This document shows, one piece after another, positions 3,297-15,559 of a stretch of DNA of 50,016 nucleotides (its first letter is position 1; every line of letters begins with the position of its first letter). The notes beneath the pieces were generated by a model. It searched no databases. It worked only from the letters and a program-made list of their open reading frames with translations, and was not told the origin of the DNA. The translations under genes were made by a program, and so were the position numbers. Source of the DNA: Burkholderiales bacterium (lineage in GTDB: Bacteria; Pseudomonadota; Gammaproteobacteria; Burkholderiales; Ga0077523); the NCBI GenBank assembly GCA_019745565.1, contig JAIESW010000004.1:1-50016 (forward strand), in the 5' to 3' direction.

Positions 3297-4139
3297 ATGA
3301 CGACCACAACCCACCCTCGCAGCTTCCTCGCCCGCAACCAATGGCTGCTGGCCCGGCGCACGTCGCAGATCGCGATCCTCGTGCTGTTTCTCATCGGCCC
3401 GTGGTTCAGCGTGTGGTGGCTCAAGGGCAACCTCGCCTCCAGCGTCTTCCTCGACACGCTGCCGCTCACCGATCCGCTCGTGCTGCTGCAGTCCTACGTC
3501 GGCGGGCACACGATCGAGGCGACGGCGTTGGTCGGGGCGATCACCGTGTTTGCGATCTACGCCCTGATCGGCGGCCGCGTGTATTGCTCCTGGGTCTGTC
3601 CGATCAACATCGTGACCGATGCTGCCCACTGGTTGCGCACGAAGCTGCACATCGGCGTGAACTGGCAGCCGCGCAAGGCGACGCGGCTGTGGATCCTCGG
3701 GGCCTCGTTGGCCGTATCGGCCGCGGCCGGCGCCATCGCCTGGGAACTGGTGAATCCGGTGACCATGTTGCAGCGAGGGCTCGTGTTCGGCCTCGGGCTC
3801 GCGTGGATCATCGTGCTGGCGGTGTTCCTGTTCGACCTGATGGTGAGCCGCCGCGGCTGGTGCAGCTATCTGTGCCCGGTGGGGGCGTTCTACGGCATCG
3901 CGGGCAAGGTGGCGCTGATCCGCGTGAGTGCGGTGCGGCGCAGCGCCTGTACCGACTGCGGTGACTGCTTCCGCGTGTGCCCCGAGCCGCACGTGATCTC
4001 GCCGGCACTGAAGCCGCGCGACCCGAACACTTCGCCCGTGATACTGAGCGGGGACTGTACGAACTGCGGGCGGTGCCTGGACGTCTGCGCGGACGATGTG
4101 TTCGAGATGGGGGGGCGGTTCCGGAAGCGTCCAGGATAG
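3297..4139 (+). CDS. napH: NapH-type membrane quinol dehydrogenase component
   Basis: 280 residues. Four membrane segments are visible (about 24-45, 75-95, 135-155, 165-185) with the paired CxxxCP motifs CSWVCPIN and CSYLCPVG typical of NapH. The C-terminal cytoplasmic part has two [4Fe-4S] motifs, CTDCGDCFRVCP and CTNCGRCLDVC. NapH is thought to oxidise quinol and pass electrons to NapG across the membrane. The start ATG at 3297 directly follows the repeat element, and no strong Shine-Dalgarno sequence is seen except the G-rich repeat tail itself (GGGTGGGGG, about 20 bases upstream). Most likely co-transcribed with napG. Confidence 0.92.
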   Translation: MTTTTHPRSFLARNQWLLARRTSQIAILVLFLIGPWFSVWWLKGNLASSVFLDTLPLTDPLVLLQSYVGGHTIEATALVGAITVFAIYALIGGRVYCSWVCPINIVTDAAHWLRTKLHIGVNWQPRKATRLWILGASLAVSAAAGAIAWELVNPVTMLQRGLVFGLGLAWIIVLAVFLFDLMVSRRGWCSYLCPVGAFYGIAGKVALIRVSAVRRSACTDCGDCFRVCPEPHVISPALKPRDPNTSPVILSGDCTNCGRCLDVCADDVFEMGGRFRKRPG

Positions 4140-4369: not shown

Positions 4370-6508
4370 ATGCGTCTTCCCGTTCTTCCGACGGCCGCTC
4401 TGGCGGCCTTCTGTGTTGCCCATCCGGCCGCTGCGCAGAGCGAATCCCCCGCACCCGATCAGCGCACGCCCGAAGTCACCGTCACCGGCACTCGTGAGAA
4501 GGCGTTGCTGTCCGAGACCCCGGCCTCGATCGGCATCGTCAAGCCCGAGGTGATCCACCAGACCGGGCCGATGCATCCGCAGCAGATCCTCGGTCAAGTG
4601 CCGGGCGTCGCGGTCGCGGTGACCAACGGCGAAGGCCACACCACCGCCATCCGGCAGCCGTTCACCACGAGTCCGCTCTATCTGTTCCTGGAGGACGGCA
4701 TCCCGATCCGTGCGACCGGGATGTTCAACCACAACGCGCTGTACGAGATCAACATCCCCATGTCGGGCGGGATCGAGGTGACGCGAGGACCCGGTACCGC
4801 ACTGTACGGATCGGACGCCATCGGCGGCATCATCAACGTGCTCACGCGCGGACCTTCGGCCGAACCGGACGCGCGCGTATCCCTGGAAGGCGGCAGCTAT
4901 GGCTGGGCGCGCCTCATGGGTACCGCCAGCACCGGCATGACCGGCTTCGGCGGTCTGCGGACGGATCTCAACGTCACGCATACCGACGGCTGGCGCGACA
5001 AGACTGCGTACGACCGCCAGAGCGCCGGACTGCGTTGGGACTACGAACTGGACGGACGCACCACCTTCAAGACCGTCCTCGCGTTCGCCAACATCGACCA
5101 GGAGACCGGAGCCAATTCGCCGCTCACGCTGGGCGACTACGAGAACAATCCGACGAAGAACAACTTTTCCATCGCGTTCCGCAAGGTGCAGGCGCTGCGC
5201 CTGTCCACCGCCTTCGAGAAGGAGTTCGACGGGAGCCTGCTGTCGCTGACGCCTTACCTGCGCGACAACAGCATGGATCTCAACGGCTCCTTCAACCTGA
5301 GCTCCGACCCGCGCATCGAGACGACGCAGAACATGTCCTACGGATTGCTCGCCAAGTGGCGGCAGGACTTCGCAGGCGCATGGCGGCCGCGTGTCATCGT
5401 CGGCATCGATCTCGACCGGAGCCCGGGATCGCGGGTCGAGGACAACATCATCACGTCGCGCACCGGTACCGGCGCCAATACGTCCTACAACAGCTACGTG
5501 CTCGGCACCCGCATCTACGACTACGACGTGACCTTCACCAGCATCTCACCGTATATCCATACCGAGGTGTCGCCCTTCGAGCGCTTGCGGATCACGGTCG
5601 GCGCTCGGTACGACGATCTGTCGTACGACATGCGCAACAACCTGGCACCGGGTGCCGTCCAGGCGAACGTGAACGGAGCAACGCGCTTCTACGGGCAGAT
5701 TCCCGACGCGTCCCTCAACTTCACGCAGGTGAGCCCGAAGTTCGGCGCGACGTTCCAGATCGACGCCGAGACCACGATCTACACGTCGTACAACCACGGT
5801 TTCCGCGTGCCGTCCGAAGGCCAGCTCTTCCGGGCCGGCAACGACACGACGGCTCAGCGTGCCGTTGCGCGGGCCAACGCGCTGCTGACCCTGAAGCCGA
5901 TCCAGGCCAATCAGTTCGAAGTGGGCCTGCGCGGCGAGGTACGGAATGTCGCCTACAACGTAGCGCTCTACGATCTCATCAAGTACGACGACCTGGTGAG
6001 CCAGCGCGACCTCGCGACCAACGTCACCACCAACGTGAATGCGGGCAAGACCGAAAGCCGCGGAATCGAGGTGGGTCTGGGCATCCCCTTCACACCGCAG
6101 TGGCGCCTCGACGTGGCCGGGTCCTACGCGATCCACAAGTACGTGAACTTCGCCACGGCCACGGCCGATTTCAGCGGCAGGGAGATGGAAGCGGCGCCGC
6201 GGGTCATCGGCAACACGCGGCTGACCTGGACGCCCACCGAGAAGACGCTGCTGCAGCTCGAATGGGTGCGCATCGGCTCCTACTGGCTGGAGGCCTCCAA
6301 CTCGGCGGCGTTCGGGAAGTATTCGGGCTACGATCTCATCAATCTGCGCTTCAACCAGACGGTCAACAAGTCCGTGTCGTTCTTCGCCCGCATCATGAAC
6401 CTGCTCGACGAGCGCTATGCCGACAGCGCGTCGGTGTCGTCGAACACGCCCGTGTATTCGCCCGGGCTGCCGCGCACCTATTACGCCGGAGTCGAACTGA
6501 AGTGGTAG
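4370..6508 (+). CDS. TonB-dependent outer-membrane receptor, probable metal uptake
   Basis: 712 residues. A signal peptide (about 1-23, ending HPAAAQ) is followed by a TonB box (EVTVTGTRE), a plug domain (about 45-155, with GGIEVTRGPGTALYGSDAIGG) and a 22-strand-type barrel ending in aromatic-terminated VELKW, as outer-membrane proteins do. Such receptors import metal complexes, cobamides or other scarce ligands using TonB energy. The substrate cannot be read from the sequence. The next two genes (a propeller with Cys/His motifs and a thioredoxin) are only 2 bp away and overlapping, and the context of Nap genes suggests copper or another redox metal; this is inference. No Fur-like site was noticed; a RegA-type box lies upstream. 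Confidence 0.9.
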   Translation: MRLPVLPTAALAAFCVAHPAAAQSESPAPDQRTPEVTVTGTREKALLSETPASIGIVKPEVIHQTGPMHPQQILGQVPGVAVAVTNGEGHTTAIRQPFTTSPLYLFLEDGIPIRATGMFNHNALYEINIPMSGGIEVTRGPGTALYGSDAIGGIINVLTRGPSAEPDARVSLEGGSYGWARLMGTASTGMTGFGGLRTDLNVTHTDGWRDKTAYDRQSAGLRWDYELDGRTTFKTVLAFANIDQETGANSPLTLGDYENNPTKNNFSIAFRKVQALRLSTAFEKEFDGSLLSLTPYLRDNSMDLNGSFNLSSDPRIETTQNMSYGLLAKWRQDFAGAWRPRVIVGIDLDRSPGSRVEDNIITSRTGTGANTSYNSYVLGTRIYDYDVTFTSISPYIHTEVSPFERLRITVGARYDDLSYDMRNNLAPGAVQANVNGATRFYGQIPDASLNFTQVSPKFGATFQIDAETTIYTSYNHGFRVPSEGQLFRAGNDTTAQRAVARANALLTLKPIQANQFEVGLRGEVRNVAYNVALYDLIKYDDLVSQRDLATNVTTNVNAGKTESRGIEVGLGIPFTPQWRLDVAGSYAIHKYVNFATATADFSGREMEAAPRVIGNTRLTWTPTEKTLLQLEWVRIGSYWLEASNSAAFGKYSGYDLINLRFNQTVNKSVSFFARIMNLLDERYADSASVSSNTPVYSPGLPRTYYAGVELKW

Positions 6509-6510
6509 GG

Positions 6511-7680
6511 ATGCGCTCGGGCCTGGTCGCTGCGTTGCTCTGCGCGAGCATCGCGACGGCACAGGATCATGCGGCCCATGGCGCCGCGAAGACACCGCGT
6601 TTCGCGCTCGGGTCATCCGCAGCGGTGGATGGTTCGGGGACGATCTGGGCCGTGCACTTGGATGGCGGCCGGGTGGTGGTCCGTCAGAGCGCGGGGGTGG
6701 GGCAGCTCTGGTCGGCTCCCGTGCCGCTATCCGCGCCAGAAGAGCGTATAGAGGCCGACGGCGATGCCCGGCCCAAGATTGCGGTCGGAGGGGTGAACGA
6801 ACTTTACGTGACGTGGACTCATCCGCTTGCGAAGCCCTACACCGGCGAGATCCGCTTCGTCCGATCGGTCGATGGTGGCCGGACTTTCAGTGCGCCGATG
6901 ACCGTGCATCGCGATCGCCAGGAGATCACCCATCGCTTCGACTCGGTCGCCGTCTCGCAACGGGGGCAGGTGTTCGTCGCCTGGATCGACCGGCGCGATG
7001 CCGTGCTGGCGAAGGAGCGCGGGGCCGACTACCGCGGCGCCGCGGTCTACTACGCCGTCTCCGACGACCGGGGGGCGAGTTTTCGGGGCGACTTCAAGGT
7101 GGGCGACCACAGCTGCGAATGCTGCCGCATCGCGATGCGGCCGCGCAGCGACGGCGGTATGGACGCGCTCTGGCGGCATGTGTTCGAACCCAACGTGCGC
7201 GATCACGCGCTTGCCGTGCTCGAACCGGACGGCGCGGTGACCGATCTGCATCGTGCCACCTTCGACGACTGGCGCATCGATGCCTGCCCGCATCACGGTC
7301 CGTCGCTGGTGGCGGATGGGGCGGGGACGCTGCACTCCGTATGGTTTGCACAGTCGTCCGATGATGCCGGCGCCTTCTACGGTCGACTGATCGACGGCAA
7401 GGTGGAAGGTCAGCGCAAGCTCGGGGGTGGAGCTGCCGAGCACCCGGACATCGCGGCGGCAGGCAACAGCGTCGTCGTGGTGTGGAAGGAGTTCGATGGG
7501 AACGTCACGCGATTGCGTGCGATGACCTCGGACGATCGGGGCGCGCACTGGAGCGAGCGGGAACTCGGCAGCACCACCGACGCGTCCGGTCAGCCGCAGT
7601 TGCTGCAGATCGGCGAGCGCTTCGTCGTGTTCTGGAACACTCGGGCAGACGGCTTGACGCTCACGGGGATCTCCCGATGA
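6511..7680 (+). CDS. Exported Asp-box beta-propeller with CECC and CPHHGP motifs
   Basis: 389 residues. Signal peptide 1-17 (ending ATAQ) followed by a His-rich start, DHAAHG. Three Asp-box (BNR) repeats are clear: SVDGGRTF (119-126), SDDRGASF (184-191), SDDRGAHW (340-347), so the fold is a sialidase-type propeller. No sialidase catalytic set (arginine triad, Tyr/Glu pair) was recognised. Instead there is CECC at 202-205 (DHSCECCRIAMR) and DACPHHGP at 257-264, which look like metal or redox sites. The gene starts 2 bp after the receptor stop and its last 4 bases overlap the thioredoxin start (ATGA), so the three are translationally linked. Databases may label this exo-alpha-sialidase; metal binding in the periplasm seems likelier but is inference. 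Confidence 0.75.
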   Translation: MRSGLVAALLCASIATAQDHAAHGAAKTPRFALGSSAAVDGSGTIWAVHLDGGRVVVRQSAGVGQLWSAPVPLSAPEERIEADGDARPKIAVGGVNELYVTWTHPLAKPYTGEIRFVRSVDGGRTFSAPMTVHRDRQEITHRFDSVAVSQRGQVFVAWIDRRDAVLAKERGADYRGAAVYYAVSDDRGASFRGDFKVGDHSCECCRIAMRPRSDGGMDALWRHVFEPNVRDHALAVLEPDGAVTDLHRATFDDWRIDACPHHGPSLVADGAGTLHSVWFAQSSDDAGAFYGRLIDGKVEGQRKLGGGAAEHPDIAAAGNSVVVVWKEFDGNVTRLRAMTSDDRGAHWSERELGSTTDASGQPQLLQIGERFVVFWNTRADGLTLTGISR

Positions 7681-8172: not shown

Positions 8173-10287
8173 TCAGAATCGGTAGCGCGCCTCGAGATAG
8201 AAGCTGCGTCCCGGCATCGGATAGTAGGTGGCGCTGTAGCCGACGGTCGAGTAGACCTCGTTGAACAGATTGGCCGCGACTGCCGACCACAGCCAGCGTC
8301 CTTGCGGGATGCGCAACGCGAGGTCACAGACCACGTACGAGGGCAGCTTCGGGTAGAGGTTGTTGTTGGGATCGTTGCCGTCGTAGCGGCTGCCGACGTA
8401 GCGGGCGGTGAAGCTGGTCCGCAGCCATTCGCGCGGCGTCCACAGGAGTTCGGTGCCGGCGGTTACCGCGGGCACCAGCGGGATGTGCGTGTCGGTGCTC
8501 TCGAAGCGGGCATTGGTGAGGCCCAGACTCCCGCGCACCGCGAAGGTGGAATGCGCACGCCATCGCAATTCCAGTTCGGCGCCCGTGCGCCGGGTCGGCG
8601 AGTCCGCATTGCGGTTGACCGCGAGGCCGGTGGTCGGATCGCGACCGAAGAGGATCTCGTTCTCGATGCGCATGTGGAACAGCGTGACGGAGGCCTCGAG
8701 GGTATCGGCGAGGCTCGCGCGCAGTCCGGTCTCCACCGTGGTACCGGTCTGCGCGCGCAGGTCTGCAGATGCGAGCAGGAGTTCGTCGACGTTGGGATTG
8801 CGGAAGTTCCGGGTTACCCCTCCGAAGAGCGTCAGGCCGGGCGCTGCCTGCCAGGTCGCTCCCAGTTCCGCGCCGCGGTTGCGTGCCGTGTTGTTGCGGG
8901 TGCTGACGGTACGATAGGCATCCGTGCAGCCGACCTGCTGCAACACGGGTGTCGGTACCAGGACCACGCCAGGCCCGGGGTCGACGTCCACGAGTACGAT
9001 CGTGGTGATGGTCTGGCAATCGCCGCTGGTGTAGTTCTGGGACTCTTCGCGCATGTCCCACCAGTCGCCGCGCAGGCCGGCGTTGATGGCCAGCGATCGG
9101 GTGGCCGACAGAGTGGTGCCGGCCCATGCGCCGTAGTTGTTCAGCCGGCCGGTTCGCCGTGTGGAACTGCCCGCCACGTTCTCGCCGTTCTCGCTGCGGC
9201 CATAGTCCGCGCGCTGGGCGTCCATGCCGACCTCGAAGGTCTGCGGGAGTCCGAAGACGGTCGTGCCGACCGAATAGCGCGCGTTGACATCGACCCGCTT
9301 CGATTCGATGACGGAGCGCTGCTGGTCCGGCGGGATCGCCGGGTTGTAGCCGATGAAGTAGGGGTTCTCGCGGTCGCGGAAGGTGGTCTGCAGGACGAAG
9401 CGGCCGGCGTTGCCCAGGTCGATCGTGCCGCCGGCGGTGACGCGCTGATCGGTGGTGCTGCTGTTGTCGTTGGGAAAACTCGATGCGCGGCGTTGCGACT
9501 CCGAACCCGCGAATGCGCTCGCGCTCACCGGCCCCGGCAGTCCGGAATCATCGTGGTGGTAAGCGGCGCGCAGGTACGCGTCGATCAACCCCGTGTCGCG
9601 CTCGGGCAGCCAGCGCAGTTCCGCCGCCACGTCCCGGGCGGTGACGAAGCTGTTCTGGCGGTAGCCGTTCGTGTCGAACGCGCTGGCCGTCACGTTGCCG
9701 GCCCACGACCCGATGGACTTGCCGGCATTCAGGCGCACGTCACCGGTCTGGTGGGAGCCGCCGCGAGCGAGGATGTCGAGCGTGCCGGGGCCGGTGCGCG
9801 CCCGTTTGGTGATGATGTTGATGACGCCGCCTACGGCGCCGTTGCCGTAGCGCACGGCACCGCCGCCGCGGACGATCTCGATGCGCTCGATGCGCGAGAG
9901 CGGGATGACCGACAGATCGGCACCCGACAGGTCAACTTCGTTCAGGCGCTCGCCGTCGACCAGGACCAGCACATTGCTCGAAGCGGTGGCGCCCATGCCG
10001 CGGATGTCGACGGTGGCGCGCTTGTCCGAACCGAAGTAACTCTGCAGGTTGAGGTTCGCTTCGCGTCCGAGCAAGTCACCGACGGAGCTCGCCGTGCTGC
10101 GCTCGATGTCGGCCGCGGTGATGACCGAAACGCCGTGCGGCGTCGTGCGTACGGTCCCATCCACGCTCGGGGCCGTGACGACGACTTCCTTCGCTTCGAG
10201 GAAGTCGTCGTCCTGGGGTGCGGCTGTTGCGGGAGCCAGGTCGAGCGCGAGCGCGGCAGCGATCAGCGCCGGCGCACGGAGGCGCAT
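8173..10287 (-). CDS. BtuB-like TonB-dependent cobamide receptor
   Basis: 704 residues: signal peptide (1-22, ending ATAA), TonB box KEVVVTAP, plug (about 45-160, with IERIEIVRGGGAVRYGNGAVGGVINIIT), then a barrel ending in EARYRF. The plug and barrel signatures fit the BtuB/vitamin B12 receptor group. The strongest evidence for cobalamin is regulatory: a cobalamin riboswitch lies at 11972-12205 at the head of this transcription unit. Its start overlaps the end of the upstream PEP-CTERM gene by 25 bp, implying translational coupling. No btuCDF or cobalamin synthesis gene is in the window. btuB is plausible, but the symbol is left blank because specificity for B12 itself versus related cobamides cannot be told. 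Confidence 0.88.
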   Translation of the reverse strand: MRLRAPALIAAALALDLAPATAAPQDDDFLEAKEVVVTAPSVDGTVRTTPHGVSVITAADIERSTASSVGDLLGREANLNLQSYFGSDKRATVDIRGMGATASSNVLVLVDGERLNEVDLSGADLSVIPLSRIERIEIVRGGGAVRYGNGAVGGVINIITKRARTGPGTLDILARGGSHQTGDVRLNAGKSIGSWAGNVTASAFDTNGYRQNSFVTARDVAAELRWLPERDTGLIDAYLRAAYHHDDSGLPGPVSASAFAGSESQRRASSFPNDNSSTTDQRVTAGGTIDLGNAGRFVLQTTFRDRENPYFIGYNPAIPPDQQRSVIESKRVDVNARYSVGTTVFGLPQTFEVGMDAQRADYGRSENGENVAGSSTRRTGRLNNYGAWAGTTLSATRSLAINAGLRGDWWDMREESQNYTSGDCQTITTIVLVDVDPGPGVVLVPTPVLQQVGCTDAYRTVSTRNNTARNRGAELGATWQAAPGLTLFGGVTRNFRNPNVDELLLASADLRAQTGTTVETGLRASLADTLEASVTLFHMRIENEILFGRDPTTGLAVNRNADSPTRRTGAELELRWRAHSTFAVRGSLGLTNARFESTDTHIPLVPAVTAGTELLWTPREWLRTSFTARYVGSRYDGNDPNNNLYPKLPSYVVCDLALRIPQGRWLWSAVAANLFNEVYSTVGYSATYYPMPGRSFYLEARYRF

Positions 10288-11813
10288 CGGCGGCGTGCGA
10301 TTGCGAGCATCACCAGTCCGGCAGCGATCAGCGCCAGTTCGGACGGTTCCGGCACTGCGGTGACCGTGAGGTCATCCAGGGCGAAGTAGGCCGGCGTGTT
10401 CATGCCGAATCCGCCGTTGTCCGAGGAGGCGAGACCGAATGTCAGCTTCGATACGGCGCCGAGGGGTGCCAGGTTCACGAACCTCCAGTCGCGCACGATG
10501 TAGTCGGACGAGTTGTTCGCGAAGCGGTAGTCGGCGAGGTAGAACTCCACGGAGCCGGTCTCCTGGTTGGCCGCATTCCACCCGGTGACGGTGAGCTTGA
10601 AGAAGTCGGCGTCGTTGCCGGTCGCGCCACCGAATTTCTTGGCGAAGCTGTCGCCGGTCAGCATGGACAGCGCGGCGTAAGTGGTGTTGGTGAAATAGCC
10701 GCCAGCGACGATCGACGGCATGTCGAACGTGATGGTGGGAGCACCAAGGAACGCGACGCCGTAGTTCGCAGATCCGGCGTTTCCACTACCAGCGTAGGCG
10801 CTGTACTGGTTCGTGAAGCCTGGTGTGGTCGTGTCTGTGGTGTTCGAGTACGACCAGCCGTTCCAGCAGCAACCGCCGCCGAAATCGGTGAAGTCGTGAT
10901 TGAACTTTGCCATGCCGGACTGGAAAGTCGCGGGGATGCCGGGCAAGTAGAAGCTGTTCGGCGCGAGGGTGAGATCGTCGAAGGTCGTGATGGCGGCAGA
11001 GGCCGGCAGCGCAGCAGCGCCGGCCAGCACGAGGACCGCTTTACGCATCCTTCTGCGTCCCAGCAGAGCGAACACGGCGAGGCCACCCAGCATCAGCACG
11101 ACGGTCGACGGCTCCGGCACCGGGGCCGCATGAATCACGCCCACCGCATCGAGATCGAAGCCCCCGCTGCCCACGGTGGGGTGGGGGTCGTAGATGGCGC
11201 GGCCAGCGCTGTCGAGGGCCGTGCCGTTGCCGACGATGTCGACGATCCGTACGTAACGTACGGCGTTGACGTCGATTCCCGGGACCGCCTTGAAGATGTC
11301 GAGATCGAACGGTGTGCCATAGCCGCCGCGGTACTTGCCGGCGAGTCCGCTAAGGTTCGTCGGGTCGAGACTGCCGAAGGCGCCGATCGCGCCAGGGGTC
11401 AGGGAGAAGTTGGGAAAGCGGTAGAAGTTCGCCCCGTTGGACGAGACCTCCACCCAGGCGAGTTCGAGGAACGTGTCGCTGAAGCTGTTCTCGAACACCG
11501 CGAAGTCGGCGCCCGGGCCGTTGGTGATGAAGCCGTTGAAGGTGAGGGTGATGCGGCCCGAATCCCCGAGTACGACGACGTCGGTCGGGTCGCCGGTCGC
11601 AGCGCCGAGGGCCTTTGCCGGCGTCTGGAAGCCTGCGTCGACGTTGGGCCCTGGCAGATAGTCGAGGTAGCCGGTGGCCCAGCCGACGAAGCTGGGGCTC
11701 GTCTGGATGATGGCGGTGGAACCGGCCAAGCCCGCGGCTGGCGCATAGGGGCCGGCGTGGGCGGTGGCAGCCAGCGCAAGCGCGGCTGCGAGGAAACAAC
11801 GGGTGAAGAACAT
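10263..11813 (-). CDS. Tandem PEP-CTERM fusion: two exported precursors in one ORF
   Basis: 516 residues made of two complete precursors. Half 1 (1-255): signal peptide MFFTRCFLAAALALAATAHA, a beta-rich domain with GPGADFAVFENSF, RYVRIVDIVG and GGFDLDAVGVI, then VPEPST, a hydrophobic segment and RRR. Half 2 starts at Met256 (base 11048): MRKAVLVLAGAAALPASA reads as a new signal peptide, followed by a domain of DUF4465 type (TFDDLTLAPNSFY..., FFKLTVTGWN, YFALDDLTV) and a second VPEPSE, hydrophobic segment and Arg-rich tail. PEP-CTERM tails are sorted and cut by exosortase/EpsH systems. Start 11813 has GGAGG upstream. It lies directly behind a cobalamin riboswitch and overlaps the BtuB-like gene. 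DUF4465 proteins are, from memory, linked to B12-binding surface proteins (BtuH) in Bacteroidetes; a cobamide capture role is inferred. Confidence 0.85.
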   Translation of the reverse strand: MFFTRCFLAAALALAATAHAGPYAPAAGLAGSTAIIQTSPSFVGWATGYLDYLPGPNVDAGFQTPAKALGAATGDPTDVVVLGDSGRITLTFNGFITNGPGADFAVFENSFSDTFLELAWVEVSSNGANFYRFPNFSLTPGAIGAFGSLDPTNLSGLAGKYRGGYGTPFDLDIFKAVPGIDVNAVRYVRIVDIVGNGTALDSAGRAIYDPHPTVGSGGFDLDAVGVIHAAPVPEPSTVVLMLGGLAVFALLGRRRMRKAVLVLAGAAALPASAAITTFDDLTLAPNSFYLPGIPATFQSGMAKFNHDFTDFGGGCCWNGWSYSNTTDTTTPGFTNQYSAYAGSGNAGSANYGVAFLGAPTITFDMPSIVAGGYFTNTTYAALSMLTGDSFAKKFGGATGNDADFFKLTVTGWNAANQETGSVEFYLADYRFANNSSDYIVRDWRFVNLAPLGAVSKLTFGLASSDNGGFGMNTPAYFALDDLTVTAVPEPSELALIAAGLVMLAIARRRCASVRRR

Positions 11814-11971
11814 GGTGCCTCCGGTCTGATCGGGCACGACCCCGCGCCCTTTGGAACGACACAACCGGATGCAACGATGGAAAGAGGCGTCGGCGAGGGC
11901 GGTGCACGCGACATCGATGCGAGAAACCGCCCTGTTCTCGACCTCGAAGCCGCCCACCGCGACTGCCGGTC

Positions 11972-12205
11972 AACCTGTGTCAGGCCGGTCTCCGGGCTCG
12001 CGGGTGACGGGAACCGTCGGTTCCCATCGGCGTCCCGCCTTCCCATGCAGCACCTGCACAGTGGCCGGAAGGAACGCCGTTACACGCTTACCGTTGCGGG
12101 GGCAGCGCCGAAATTGCGCCGCGCTCGGATGAGGAGTGCAGCACGCATCGGACTTCCCGTTTCACCTTGTCGACCTTGCGATCTCGAAGGCACCTGACAC
12201 GGGCT
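11972..12205 (-). promoter_or_regulatory. Cobalamin (AdoCbl-class) riboswitch
   Basis: Read on the minus strand from about 12205: the AGGTGCC opening segment, AAGGTGAAACGGGAAGTCCG, the CCCCCGCAACGGTAAG core, the B12 box GCCACTG (about 12058-12064), GGGAAGGCGGGAC, and the closing segment CCCGCGAGCCCGGAGACCGGCC...GACACAGG ending near 11975. These are the hallmark conserved blocks of the cobalamin riboswitch in the right order. About 160 nt separate it from the first start codon at 11813; the expression platform was not resolved. It should repress the PEP-CTERM/BtuB unit when cobalamin is plentiful. Confidence 0.95.
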
Positions 12206-12259
12206 GGAGAGTAATCAGGTGGCATGGGGGGTGTCAAACCATGCATTGGTGAGGCTGTT

Positions 12260-13402: not shown

Positions 13403-13762
13403 CTACTTCACCGCTTCTTTTCTCTTGCGATTCTCATCCCGCAACCAGGTGATGATGGTCCAGATCTGCTCGTCGGTCAGATCACCCGCAAATCCGGACA
13501 TCGCTGTTCCCGAGCGCCCGTTCTTGATGGTGTTGAACACCATCTCGTCGCTCGGGGCGCGCATCCATTCGTCATCGGTGAGATCGGGCCCCACGGCACC
13601 GCGCGCGTTGTTGCCGTGGCACGCGAGACAGCCGGTGCGGTTGTAGAGCTTCTTGCCCTCGGCCACGATGGCCGGTTCGGGCGACAGCGGATTGGTGAGC
13701 GGCTCTGCGCCGCTCGGCCCTGCGATCAGCAACAGGGCAAGAATCGAAACGGTTCTGTACAT
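13403..13762 (-). CDS. Periplasmic mono-haem cytochrome c
   Basis: 119 residues with a signal peptide (1-19, ending SGAEP), haem-attachment motif CLACH at 45-49 and a likely axial Met88 in SGTAMSGFAGDLTDEQIW. This is the size and layout of a class I cytochrome c. It is 72 bp downstream of the PQQ alcohol dehydrogenase gene on the same strand, so it is a good candidate for that enzyme's electron acceptor, as cytochrome cL or c550 is in methanol and ethanol oxidisers. A strong hairpin in the gap (13785-13817) may set different expression levels for the two. Confidence 0.9.
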   Translation of the reverse strand: MYRTVSILALLLIAGPSGAEPLTNPLSPEPAIVAEGKKLYNRTGCLACHGNNARGAVGPDLTDDEWMRAPSDEMVFNTIKNGRSGTAMSGFAGDLTDEQIWTIITWLRDENRKRKEAVK

Positions 13763-13784
13763 GAGATCCGGTGAAGTGGTCGAA

Positions 13785-13817
13785 GCAACGGCGAACCGCA
13801 GTGCGGCTCGCCGTTGC
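13785..13817 (-). other. Long hairpin between dehydrogenase and cytochrome genes
   Basis: GCAACGGCGA and TCGCCGTTGC are perfect 10-base arms, extended inward by CCGCA/TGCGG. There is no T-run in either direction, so it is not a classical intrinsic terminator. An RNA-stabilising or partial-termination role is inference. Confidence 0.7.
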
Positions 13818-13834
13818 GATGCAACGAAAGATGC

Positions 13835-15559
13835 TCAGCGGTCGAACAGCGCGAAGACGTACACCGTCCCGCCCTTGCGCATGTTCTTGAGATGCGGCGC
13901 GCCGCCCTTGCCGCCCCAGGTGGCCCAGCCGGTCCAGCCGCCCCAGCCCGACGGTACCGCGATGTACTGCTTGCCGTCGATGGCGAAGCTGATGGGGCTG
14001 CCGACGATGCCGGAGCCGGTCTGGTAGGACCAGAGTTCCTCGCCGGACTTGAGGTCGAAGGCCTTGAACTCGCCTTCCGGCGTGCCGGCGAAGGCGAGAC
14101 CGCCGGCCGTGGTCAGCACGCCGCTGGTGAAGGGCGACGGCGCGATGACCTGCCACTTCTTCTCGCCGGTGACGGGGTCCATGCCCACGAGCTGACCGTG
14201 ACCCTTGATCCAGTCGGCCTCGGCGATGCCGAGATTGTACTTGCCCTCGACCCGCTCCGACTTGCCCGCCAGGATGTCCGCGCAGATCTCGCGACTCGGG
14301 ATCACCACGATGGAAGCATTCGGGTTGTAGCTCATCGGGTTCCACCACTTGCCGCCCTCGGAAGCGGGGCACACGTTCATCGCCTTGTGGTCGTACGTGG
14401 GTACCTTGTCCTTGGCGATGATGGGTCTGCCCTCCGGCGTGAAGCCGGTGGCCCAGTTCACCTTGGAGATCTCCTTGGCCCAGATGAACTTGCCGTTGGT
14501 GCGGTCGATCTTGTAGAGGAAACCGTTGCGATCGCCGTGCAGCCACACCTTCTTGCCGCCGACGTCGGCGAGGATCGTCTCGTTGACGCCGTCGAAGTCC
14601 CACACGTCCCACGGCGTGTACTGGTAGTGGAACTTGATCGAACCGTCGTCCGGATTCAGGCCGAGCGTCGAGTTGGTGTACAGGTTGTCGCCGATGCGGC
14701 CCATGCCGTCCCAGTCCGGATTCGGGTTGCCCGTGCTCCAGTACAGGATGTCGAGGTCCGGATCGTAGGAACCGGTGATCCAGGTGGAACCGCCGCCGTA
14801 GGCGGAGGCTTCGGGATCCTGGTCGCCCCAGGTGTCGAAGCCGGGTTCACCCGGGCCGGGGATGGTGTAGCGGCGCCAGACCTGCGCACCGGTTTCGGAG
14901 TCGAGCGCGTCGATCCACAGACGCGTCGGATACTCCGCGCCCGACATGCCGACCACCACCTTGCCCTTCACCACGAGCGGCGCCACGGTCATGGTCTGCG
15001 CCTTGGTCCAGTCGCCGATGGTGACGTCCCACACCTTCTCGCCAGTCTCGCGTTTCAGCGCGATCACGTGGGCGTCGGGCGTGGCGTAGAACACCTTGTC
15101 GCCGTAGACGGCGGCGCCGCGGTTGCCGACGTCGCAGCACATCATCTTGCCGATGTTGTCCGGCAGGGGATGGGAGTACTGCCAGTACTCCTTGCCGGTC
15201 TTGGCATCGAGCGCGTAGATCTTGCCGTGGGAGGCCGTGACGTACATCACGCCATCCACCACCAGTGGCGTCGTGTTCTGCGCGTCCAGCGTGCCGAGCG
15301 AGAACGAGTAGACCGGTACCAGCCTCTTCACGTTCTTCGGCGTGACTGTGGCGAGCGGGCTGAAGCGAGTGCCCGAATAATCCCGCCCGGCCATCAGCCA
15401 GTTGTTCGGTTCCTTGCTGGCACTCAACAGCATGGCGTCGGTCACGGGGGTGTGCTTCTGCGCCTCAACCGCGCCGGGCAGCGCGGCGGCTAGCAGCACG
15501 GTGCCGAGCGCGATGGTCCTGCGCCAAGCGGGAGCTTGCGAACTGTTGTTCGGTTGCAT
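13835..15559 (-). CDS. PQQ-dependent alcohol dehydrogenase, lanthanide-type site
   Basis: 574 residues, the usual size of the large quinoprotein alcohol dehydrogenases. Signal peptide 1-33 (ending VEAQ). The vicinal Cys141-Cys142 (MMCCDVGNRG) stacks on PQQ. Metal and PQQ ligands are suggested by Glu209 (SGAEY), Asn278 (STGNP) and catalytic Asp321 (VWDFDG). Asp323 lies two residues after the catalytic Asp; this extra Asp marks the lanthanide-dependent XoxF/PedH/ExaF enzymes, while calcium enzymes have Ala or Ser there. Tryptophan-docking repeats (ALDAKTGKEYW, ALKRETGEKVW, AFDLKSGEELW) support the eight-bladed propeller. Start 15559 has GGAGAGGAAAC upstream. Reaction: periplasmic oxidation of a primary alcohol, electrons to a cytochrome c, probably the next gene. 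The substrate is not known. Confidence 0.92.
   Translation of the reverse strand: MQPNNSSQAPAWRRTIALGTVLLAAALPGAVEAQKHTPVTDAMLLSASKEPNNWLMAGRDYSGTRFSPLATVTPKNVKRLVPVYSFSLGTLDAQNTTPLVVDGVMYVTASHGKIYALDAKTGKEYWQYSHPLPDNIGKMMCCDVGNRGAAVYGDKVFYATPDAHVIALKRETGEKVWDVTIGDWTKAQTMTVAPLVVKGKVVVGMSGAEYPTRLWIDALDSETGAQVWRRYTIPGPGEPGFDTWGDQDPEASAYGGGSTWITGSYDPDLDILYWSTGNPNPDWDGMGRIGDNLYTNSTLGLNPDDGSIKFHYQYTPWDVWDFDGVNETILADVGGKKVWLHGDRNGFLYKIDRTNGKFIWAKEISKVNWATGFTPEGRPIIAKDKVPTYDHKAMNVCPASEGGKWWNPMSYNPNASIVVIPSREICADILAGKSERVEGKYNLGIAEADWIKGHGQLVGMDPVTGEKKWQVIAPSPFTSGVLTTAGGLAFAGTPEGEFKAFDLKSGEELWSYQTGSGIVGSPISFAIDGKQYIAVPSGWGGWTGWATWGGKGGAPHLKNMRKGGTVYVFALFDR

Follow-up and report, generated by a model that had tools for sequence, protein, structure and literature searches.

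A cobalamin riboswitch-headed operon of a Burkholderiales bacterium encodes a probable pair of exosortase-sorted B12 capture proteins and a BtuB-like receptor

In a 50,016-nucleotide stretch of the genome of a Burkholderiales bacterium (GenBank assembly GCA_019745565.1, contig JAIESW010000004.1, positions 1 to 50,016; hereafter the window), we analyzed an operon with a cobalamin riboswitch at its head, in which an open reading frame (ORF) of 516 amino acids (aa) is followed by the gene of a BtuB-like TonB-dependent receptor. The results indicate that the ORF product is probably a pair of B12 capture proteins, one BtuH-like and one of the DUF4465/BtuJ family, which would be sorted by an exosortase and hand cobamide to the receptor. 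Such a system is known in kind from BtuJ, BtuH, and BtuB, and its fused form in an exosortase setting is new as a variant; judged from sequence, the predicted B12-capture module in this setting is real and widespread. Overall, the analysis supports the interpretation of a first-pass annotation of the same DNA, with the corrections given below.

As that annotation had proposed, a cobalamin riboswitch, a single gene for two PEP-CTERM-tagged domains, and an overlapping BtuB-like receptor gene lie in this order on one strand, the minus strand, to which all coordinates of the operon refer. The riboswitch aptamer (11966..12212) matched RF00174 (109 bits, E 1.7e-26; gathering score 31.5) and was the sole element above its gathering score in a covariance-model scan of the window; the end first assigned to it, 12205, stops 7 bases before the Rfam boundary at 12212. 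A promoter and terminator scan gave no match. The ORF (10263..11813) starts with the ATG at 11813, four bases 5' of which stands GGAGG (11818..11822), its likely ribosome-binding site, and its stop codon ends at 10263. Its translation falls into two secretion and sorting units. The first (11049..11813) consists of a signal-peptide-like start, the BtuH-like domain, and a PEP-CTERM with an arginine run (11049..11123; VPEPST, hydrophobic helix, and RRR, at residues 231–255 of the unit by PF07589), and the second of an internal signal-peptide-like segment judged by eye, MRKAVLVLAGAAALPASA (10995..11048), the DUF4465 domain (10368..10868), and a second PEP-CTERM (10266..10355, by PF07589 and TIGR02595). 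No stop codon separates the first PEP-CTERM and its arginine run from MRKAVLVLAGAAALPASA. Both tag models matched two stretches each of the ORF (PF07589, 27.6 against a cut-off of 20.7; TIGR02595, 40.9 bits against 16). The receptor gene (8173..10287, 704 aa) overlaps the ORF by 25 bases, and its product carries plug and barrel domains over the cut-off (PF00593 and PF07715).

The assignment of the second half of the ORF to DUF4465, already suspected, was confirmed by a Pfam search (PF14717, E 4.5e-54, 183.9 bits against a curated cut-off of 25). However, DUF4465 had also been linked to BtuH, and this link was mistaken: DUF4465 is the BtuJ family (PMC12751083, PMC13398666), and the BtuH-like part of the protein is its first half. 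The augmented jelly-roll fold of DUF4465/BtuJ is present in the window's second domain, as is the HI-loop motif with the B12-binding tyrosine, which here reads NTPAY (10386..10400, from alignment to 9fct). A loop motif of this type touches B12 in BtuJ1 and BtuJ2 (PMC12751083, PMC13398666), and N217, T218, P219, and Y221 are invariant across 28 aligned DUF4465 sequences. B12 binding has been published for eight other members of the family (PMC13398666). With the fold and the B12-contact motif kept, the second domain is, by its sequence, a member of the cobamide-binding DUF4465/BtuJ family. It differs from BtuJ1 and BtuJ2 of Bacteroides thetaiotaomicron and from D5EK51 in that the protein bears a PEP-CTERM tag and not a lipid anchor, in that the domain is fused behind a second tagged domain, and in that the host is a betaproteobacterium.

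The first domain matched no Pfam family. Its top fold match was the B12-binding domain of BtuH2, and in each of two fold comparisons the highest-ranking entry was one with BtuH domains (8blw and 7biz, respectively). The fold of the BtuH B12-binding C-terminal domain is present, with 17–20% identity across the fold match, and the best PDB sequence match was a weak one to BtuG1 (E 0.1). Comparison of family profiles with hhalign gave 82.8% (E 9.4e-6) between the first domain and BtuH, in one comparison only. Further, BtuH2 N399 aligns with N109 of the first unit, an Asn shared by 98 of 98 first-domain sequences, and BtuH2 F401 with a Phe in 79 of 98. Three results weigh against the proposed reading: the BtuH2 contact residues Q333, H476, Y510, W511, and W577 are without a match in the first domain; hhalign of the first-domain profile against single BtuH-type ORFs gave 4.6, 4.7, 27.7, and 44.0% (n = 4); and the receptor scored 154.7 bits on TIGR01779 (BtuB), for which the curated cut-off is 599.7. 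With respect to the second of these, 146 other ORFs gave at most 5.1% against the same profile, and because two of the four BtuH-type ORFs do not rise above this background, single-sequence hhalign separates such ORFs poorly; family profiles, unlike single sequences, do separate BtuH from other ORFs. The global mode of hhalign gave no useful alignment of the first domain.

Overall, we describe the first domain as BtuH-like. It resembles BtuH2 and the H domain of BtuG1 of B. thetaiotaomicron in its best fold match, its weak profile match, the kept phosphate-contact Asn, and the type of locus, and it differs from them in having no Ig/PKD domains and in forming a separate large family. Thus, of the similarity to cobamide-binding families that had been anticipated for both halves, the second half belongs to such a family and the first resembles one. 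An initial guess that the first half was BtuL was dropped when the comparisons, among which BtuL was not included, pointed to BtuH. At E ≤ 0.001, the first-domain family takes in 7219 of the 7999 proteins scored, and among the matches listed its proteins are named by their sorting tag at most, or are called hypothetical. Members of the family repeatedly gave weak matches to NF033170, the LIC_13355 lipoprotein family (∼16 bits against a cut-off of 120), and a distant relation between the two families is possible.

Because of its TIGR01779 score, the receptor can be called BtuB-like at most. Its nearest solved structures by sequence are those of BtuB (best E 4.6e-21, with the best stretch in the plug region). 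Like BtuB, it is TonB-dependent, with plug and barrel, and has a cobalamin riboswitch upstream of its operon; unlike BtuB, it falls below the curated cut-off and is encoded beside capture proteins of another type. The low score would also fit a receptor and capture proteins that serve another ligand, with the riboswitch merely coupling them to B12 status. However, the reported B12 binding of eight DUF4465 members (PMC13398666) and the BtuB structures nearest to the receptor make this very improbable. One further cobalamin riboswitch above the cut-off is present in the same genome, 5' of a second such receptor (L122:7508-9846), which has no capture genes adjoining it among the ORFs listed.

To place the operon in a wider context, we scanned named genomes for the first-domain family and compared 80 loci, the best 80 of at least 572 confirmed, loci cut by contig ends included. 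Direct scans of these loci located a same-strand cobalamin riboswitch in 60 of 80; seven of these (L044, L063, L067, L074, L075, L082, and L084) are matches below 41 bits to a model of our own, six of them partial, and the count without them is 53 of 80. DUF4465 was found in 52 loci and the receptor in 44, the latter with a single query, so that receptors truncated at contig ends or belonging to distant phyla are undercounted. At least one of riboswitch, DUF4465, and receptor accompanied the first domain in 76 loci, and all three did so in 27. Because most of the searched genomes of these loci (39 of 50) hold only one or two cobalamin riboswitches, the riboswitch neighborhood of the first domain is not a matter of chance. 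Similarly, the first domain, DUF4465, and the receptor adjoin in all nine genomes of the genus that carry DUF4465, and in many genomes besides, a recurrence that argues against a chance grouping. The gene order is therefore not peculiar to one genome, and the first-pass annotation was right to see a proteobacterial counterpart of the Bacteroidetes proteins but drew its limits too narrowly: the gene set, in some cases with different sorting tags, also occurs in Planctomycetota, Verrucomicrobiota, deltaproteobacteria, and Bacteroidota.

This linkage bears on another reading, in which B12 is bound by the DUF4465 half only, while the first half, with a CBM32/discoidin fold, binds polysaccharide or glycan and so anchors the capture protein in exopolysaccharide. 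We consider this unlikely, as BtuH-domain entries led both fold comparisons, and both the profile match and the alignment of the invariant Asn to BtuH2 N399 point the same way. Moreover, the association seen in 76 of the 80 loci holds also under tails other than PEP-CTERM, so that a B12 role of the first domain fits better than an exopolysaccharide role. In two deltaproteobacterial metagenome-assembled genomes (MAGs; L027:5417-6042 and L028:3228-3615), a cobalamin riboswitch comes first and a c-di-GMP-I-GGC riboswitch follows it at a distance of no more than ∼400 bases, and these tandem B12 and cyclic dinucleotide riboswitches lie upstream of DUF4465 and BtuH-like genes.

We next consider the fusion itself. 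DUF4465 is present in 9 of 12 genomes of the genus, in frame with the first domain in six of the nine (the window's included) and as a separate gene in three. An assembly error was ruled out as the source of the fusion, as six genomes share it. In all six, the junction keeps the PEP-CTERM, the arginine run, and a hydrophobic segment ending Ala-x-Ala-like; in another locus (L012) the frame is open, yet the two genes lie in different frames and are not fused. Among the 80 loci, both domains share one ORF in 12, of which eight are from Planctomycetota, two from Bacteroidota, one from the genus (L014), and one from an unclassified bacterium (L060, in the order DUF4465, first domain, DUF4465). The Bacteroidota fusions (n = 2) have 7–8 residues between the domain matches, with a type IX secretion system (T9SS) tail in the one tested, and in those of Planctomycetota a single first domain precedes as many as three copies of DUF4465. 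The repeated fusion suggests that both domains act on one ligand. Four Planctomycetota ORFs of ∼2000 residues (L052, L064, L071, and L077) carry one BtuH-like and three tandem DUF4465 domains behind a cobalamin riboswitch.

We propose that, when B12 is scarce, the riboswitch would permit expression of the operon and the fused chain would be taken into the Sec route. A hairpin made up of the PEP-CTERM helix and the internal signal peptide would have its arginine-rich turn on the inside of the cell, as the usual topology rules would have it, and signal peptidase and exosortase could cleave on either side of this hairpin, freeing equal amounts of two mature capture proteins. These would be attached to the envelope or to its polysaccharide, hold cobamide tightly, and supply the TonB-driven receptor. 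A somewhat unlikely alternative is that the units stay uncut, as one tethered chain with two B12 sites, which the internal hairpin would retain in the inner membrane. Consistent with such a chain, six of the nine DUF4465-bearing genomes of the genus have no stop between the units, two-domain fusions occur in Bacteroidota and Planctomycetota, and BtuG1 of B. thetaiotaomicron likewise has two B12 sites per chain (PMC10404256). However, all six genus fusions keep the PEP-CTERM, arginine run, and signal-peptide-like segment at the junction, whereas the two Bacteroidota fusions have no more than 7–8 residues there between the domain matches, and three genomes of the genus encode the units separately.

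It is also conceivable, although we regard it as doubtful, that a stop codon was lost neutrally, giving the fusion, and that the second protein comes mostly from an internal start. An ATG stands at the junction in two of the six fused ORFs, including that of the window, where GGGA lies upstream of it; the other four have CTG (L007), TTG (L009), or GTG (L010 and L011) instead. These codons could serve in principle, but by eye no clear Shine-Dalgarno sequence precedes them, except for a purine run directly 5' of the L007 CTG, and because four of the six fusions are without a junction ATG, internal starts are the less likely source of a second protein.

Sorting of cleaved capture proteins would require an exosortase, and the genome, as foreseen, encodes two (TIGR02602, 227.7 and 155.3 bits against a cut-off of 105.55). 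The operon thus resembles PEP-CTERM/exosortase (EpsH) sorting in these genes and in its two C-terminal signals above cut-offs, and differs from it in its cargo, predicted here to be B12 capture proteins, and in that one signal lies mid-chain, ahead of a second signal-peptide-like segment. In whole genomes of 45 of the 80 loci, picked for spread, exosortase was above the cut-off in 27, below it in 5, and absent from 13. PEP-CTERM-like tails were called with a tail hidden Markov model, as a regular expression had been dropped for false matches such as PYP. Exosortase was above the cut-off in 19 of 23 genomes with such a tail on a first-domain or DUF4465 ORF, compared with 8 of 22 genomes without one (Fisher p 0.002, not corrected for kinship). 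The tail-bearing exceptions have none (L015, a 64%-complete congener, and L057) or a weak match (L069 and L078). In a sample across the order, DUF4465 was found in 5 of 200 genomes, and exosortase in four of those five, compared with 74 of 200 overall; the genomes are too few and too related for a test of co-occurrence. Other tails were also found: T9SS tails end the first-domain protein in L065, L088, and L090, and CFI-box-CTERM was matched on the first-domain protein of a spirochaete MAG (L051:6662-8056, 89 bits). As the tails vary among PEP-CTERM, T9SS, and CFI-box, phyla seem to differ in their route of display. Some deltaproteobacterial MAG tails hold CFI-like motifs that gave no NCBIfam CFI-box match (L050:3662-7774 and L036:5758-6681), and CFI-type tails may represent another sorting or anchoring route.

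The genome encodes the B12-dependent MetH. No CbiF match above the cut-off was found in the genome, which is 92.6% complete (best 151.9 against 259.65), CbiF being the one pathway step searched; in 14 control genomes the same search gave matches in 13, above the cut-off in five, and scores below the cut-off are not telling. Within that completeness, de novo B12 synthesis is probably missing. Elsewhere in the window, a second TonB-dependent receptor, PqqU-like at 109.6 bits and below the cut-off, lies at 4370-6508 (plus strand). Close to it are a gene of NapH type (3297-4139; 387.7 bits, above the cut-off) and an ORF at 6508-7680 without an NCBIfam match. A pyrroloquinoline quinone-dependent dehydrogenase of the methanol/ethanol type (TIGR03075, above the cut-off) is encoded at 13403-15559 (minus strand), adjoining a small c-type cytochrome.

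The first-pass annotation knew of no described system of this kind. We take IPR013424 to be the PEP-CTERM entry. Here a correction is due, as that entry has already been counted on 88 of 824 DUF4465 sequences (PMC12751083, section 8). A literature search, with most subscription papers and all bioRxiv preprints outside it, found no account of such a system, and the passages considered of PMC7726332 and PMC12530212 hold none. New here are the BtuH-like family and its pairing with DUF4465, and the genus fusion with internal PEP-CTERM and signal peptide, which is predicted to be cut in two. More tentatively, we suggest that the ORF may encode a sorting polyprotein, in which signal peptidase and exosortase would separate two back-to-back secretion-and-sorting units at the membrane, yielding equal amounts of two different B12 capture proteins, and that its first domain may found a new cobamide-binding family that is large, has BtuH as a distant relative, is paired with DUF4465 in several phyla, and is displayed via PEP-CTERM, T9SS, and CFI-box.

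The surface B12-capture proteins of the papers cited here have been studied chiefly in gut Bacteroides. If the proposed reading is true, environmental Proteobacteria, Planctomycetota, and Verrucomicrobiota would use the same capture strategy, and many of them would display the proteins by exosortase rather than as lipoproteins. This would give PEP-CTERM cargo a concrete nutrient function, point to a role for a family with more than 7000 members in the database, and provide a natural case in which to test if sorting signals can work mid-chain. Overall, twin capture proteins that recur across several phyla are likely a widespread way to scavenge a scarce vitamin.

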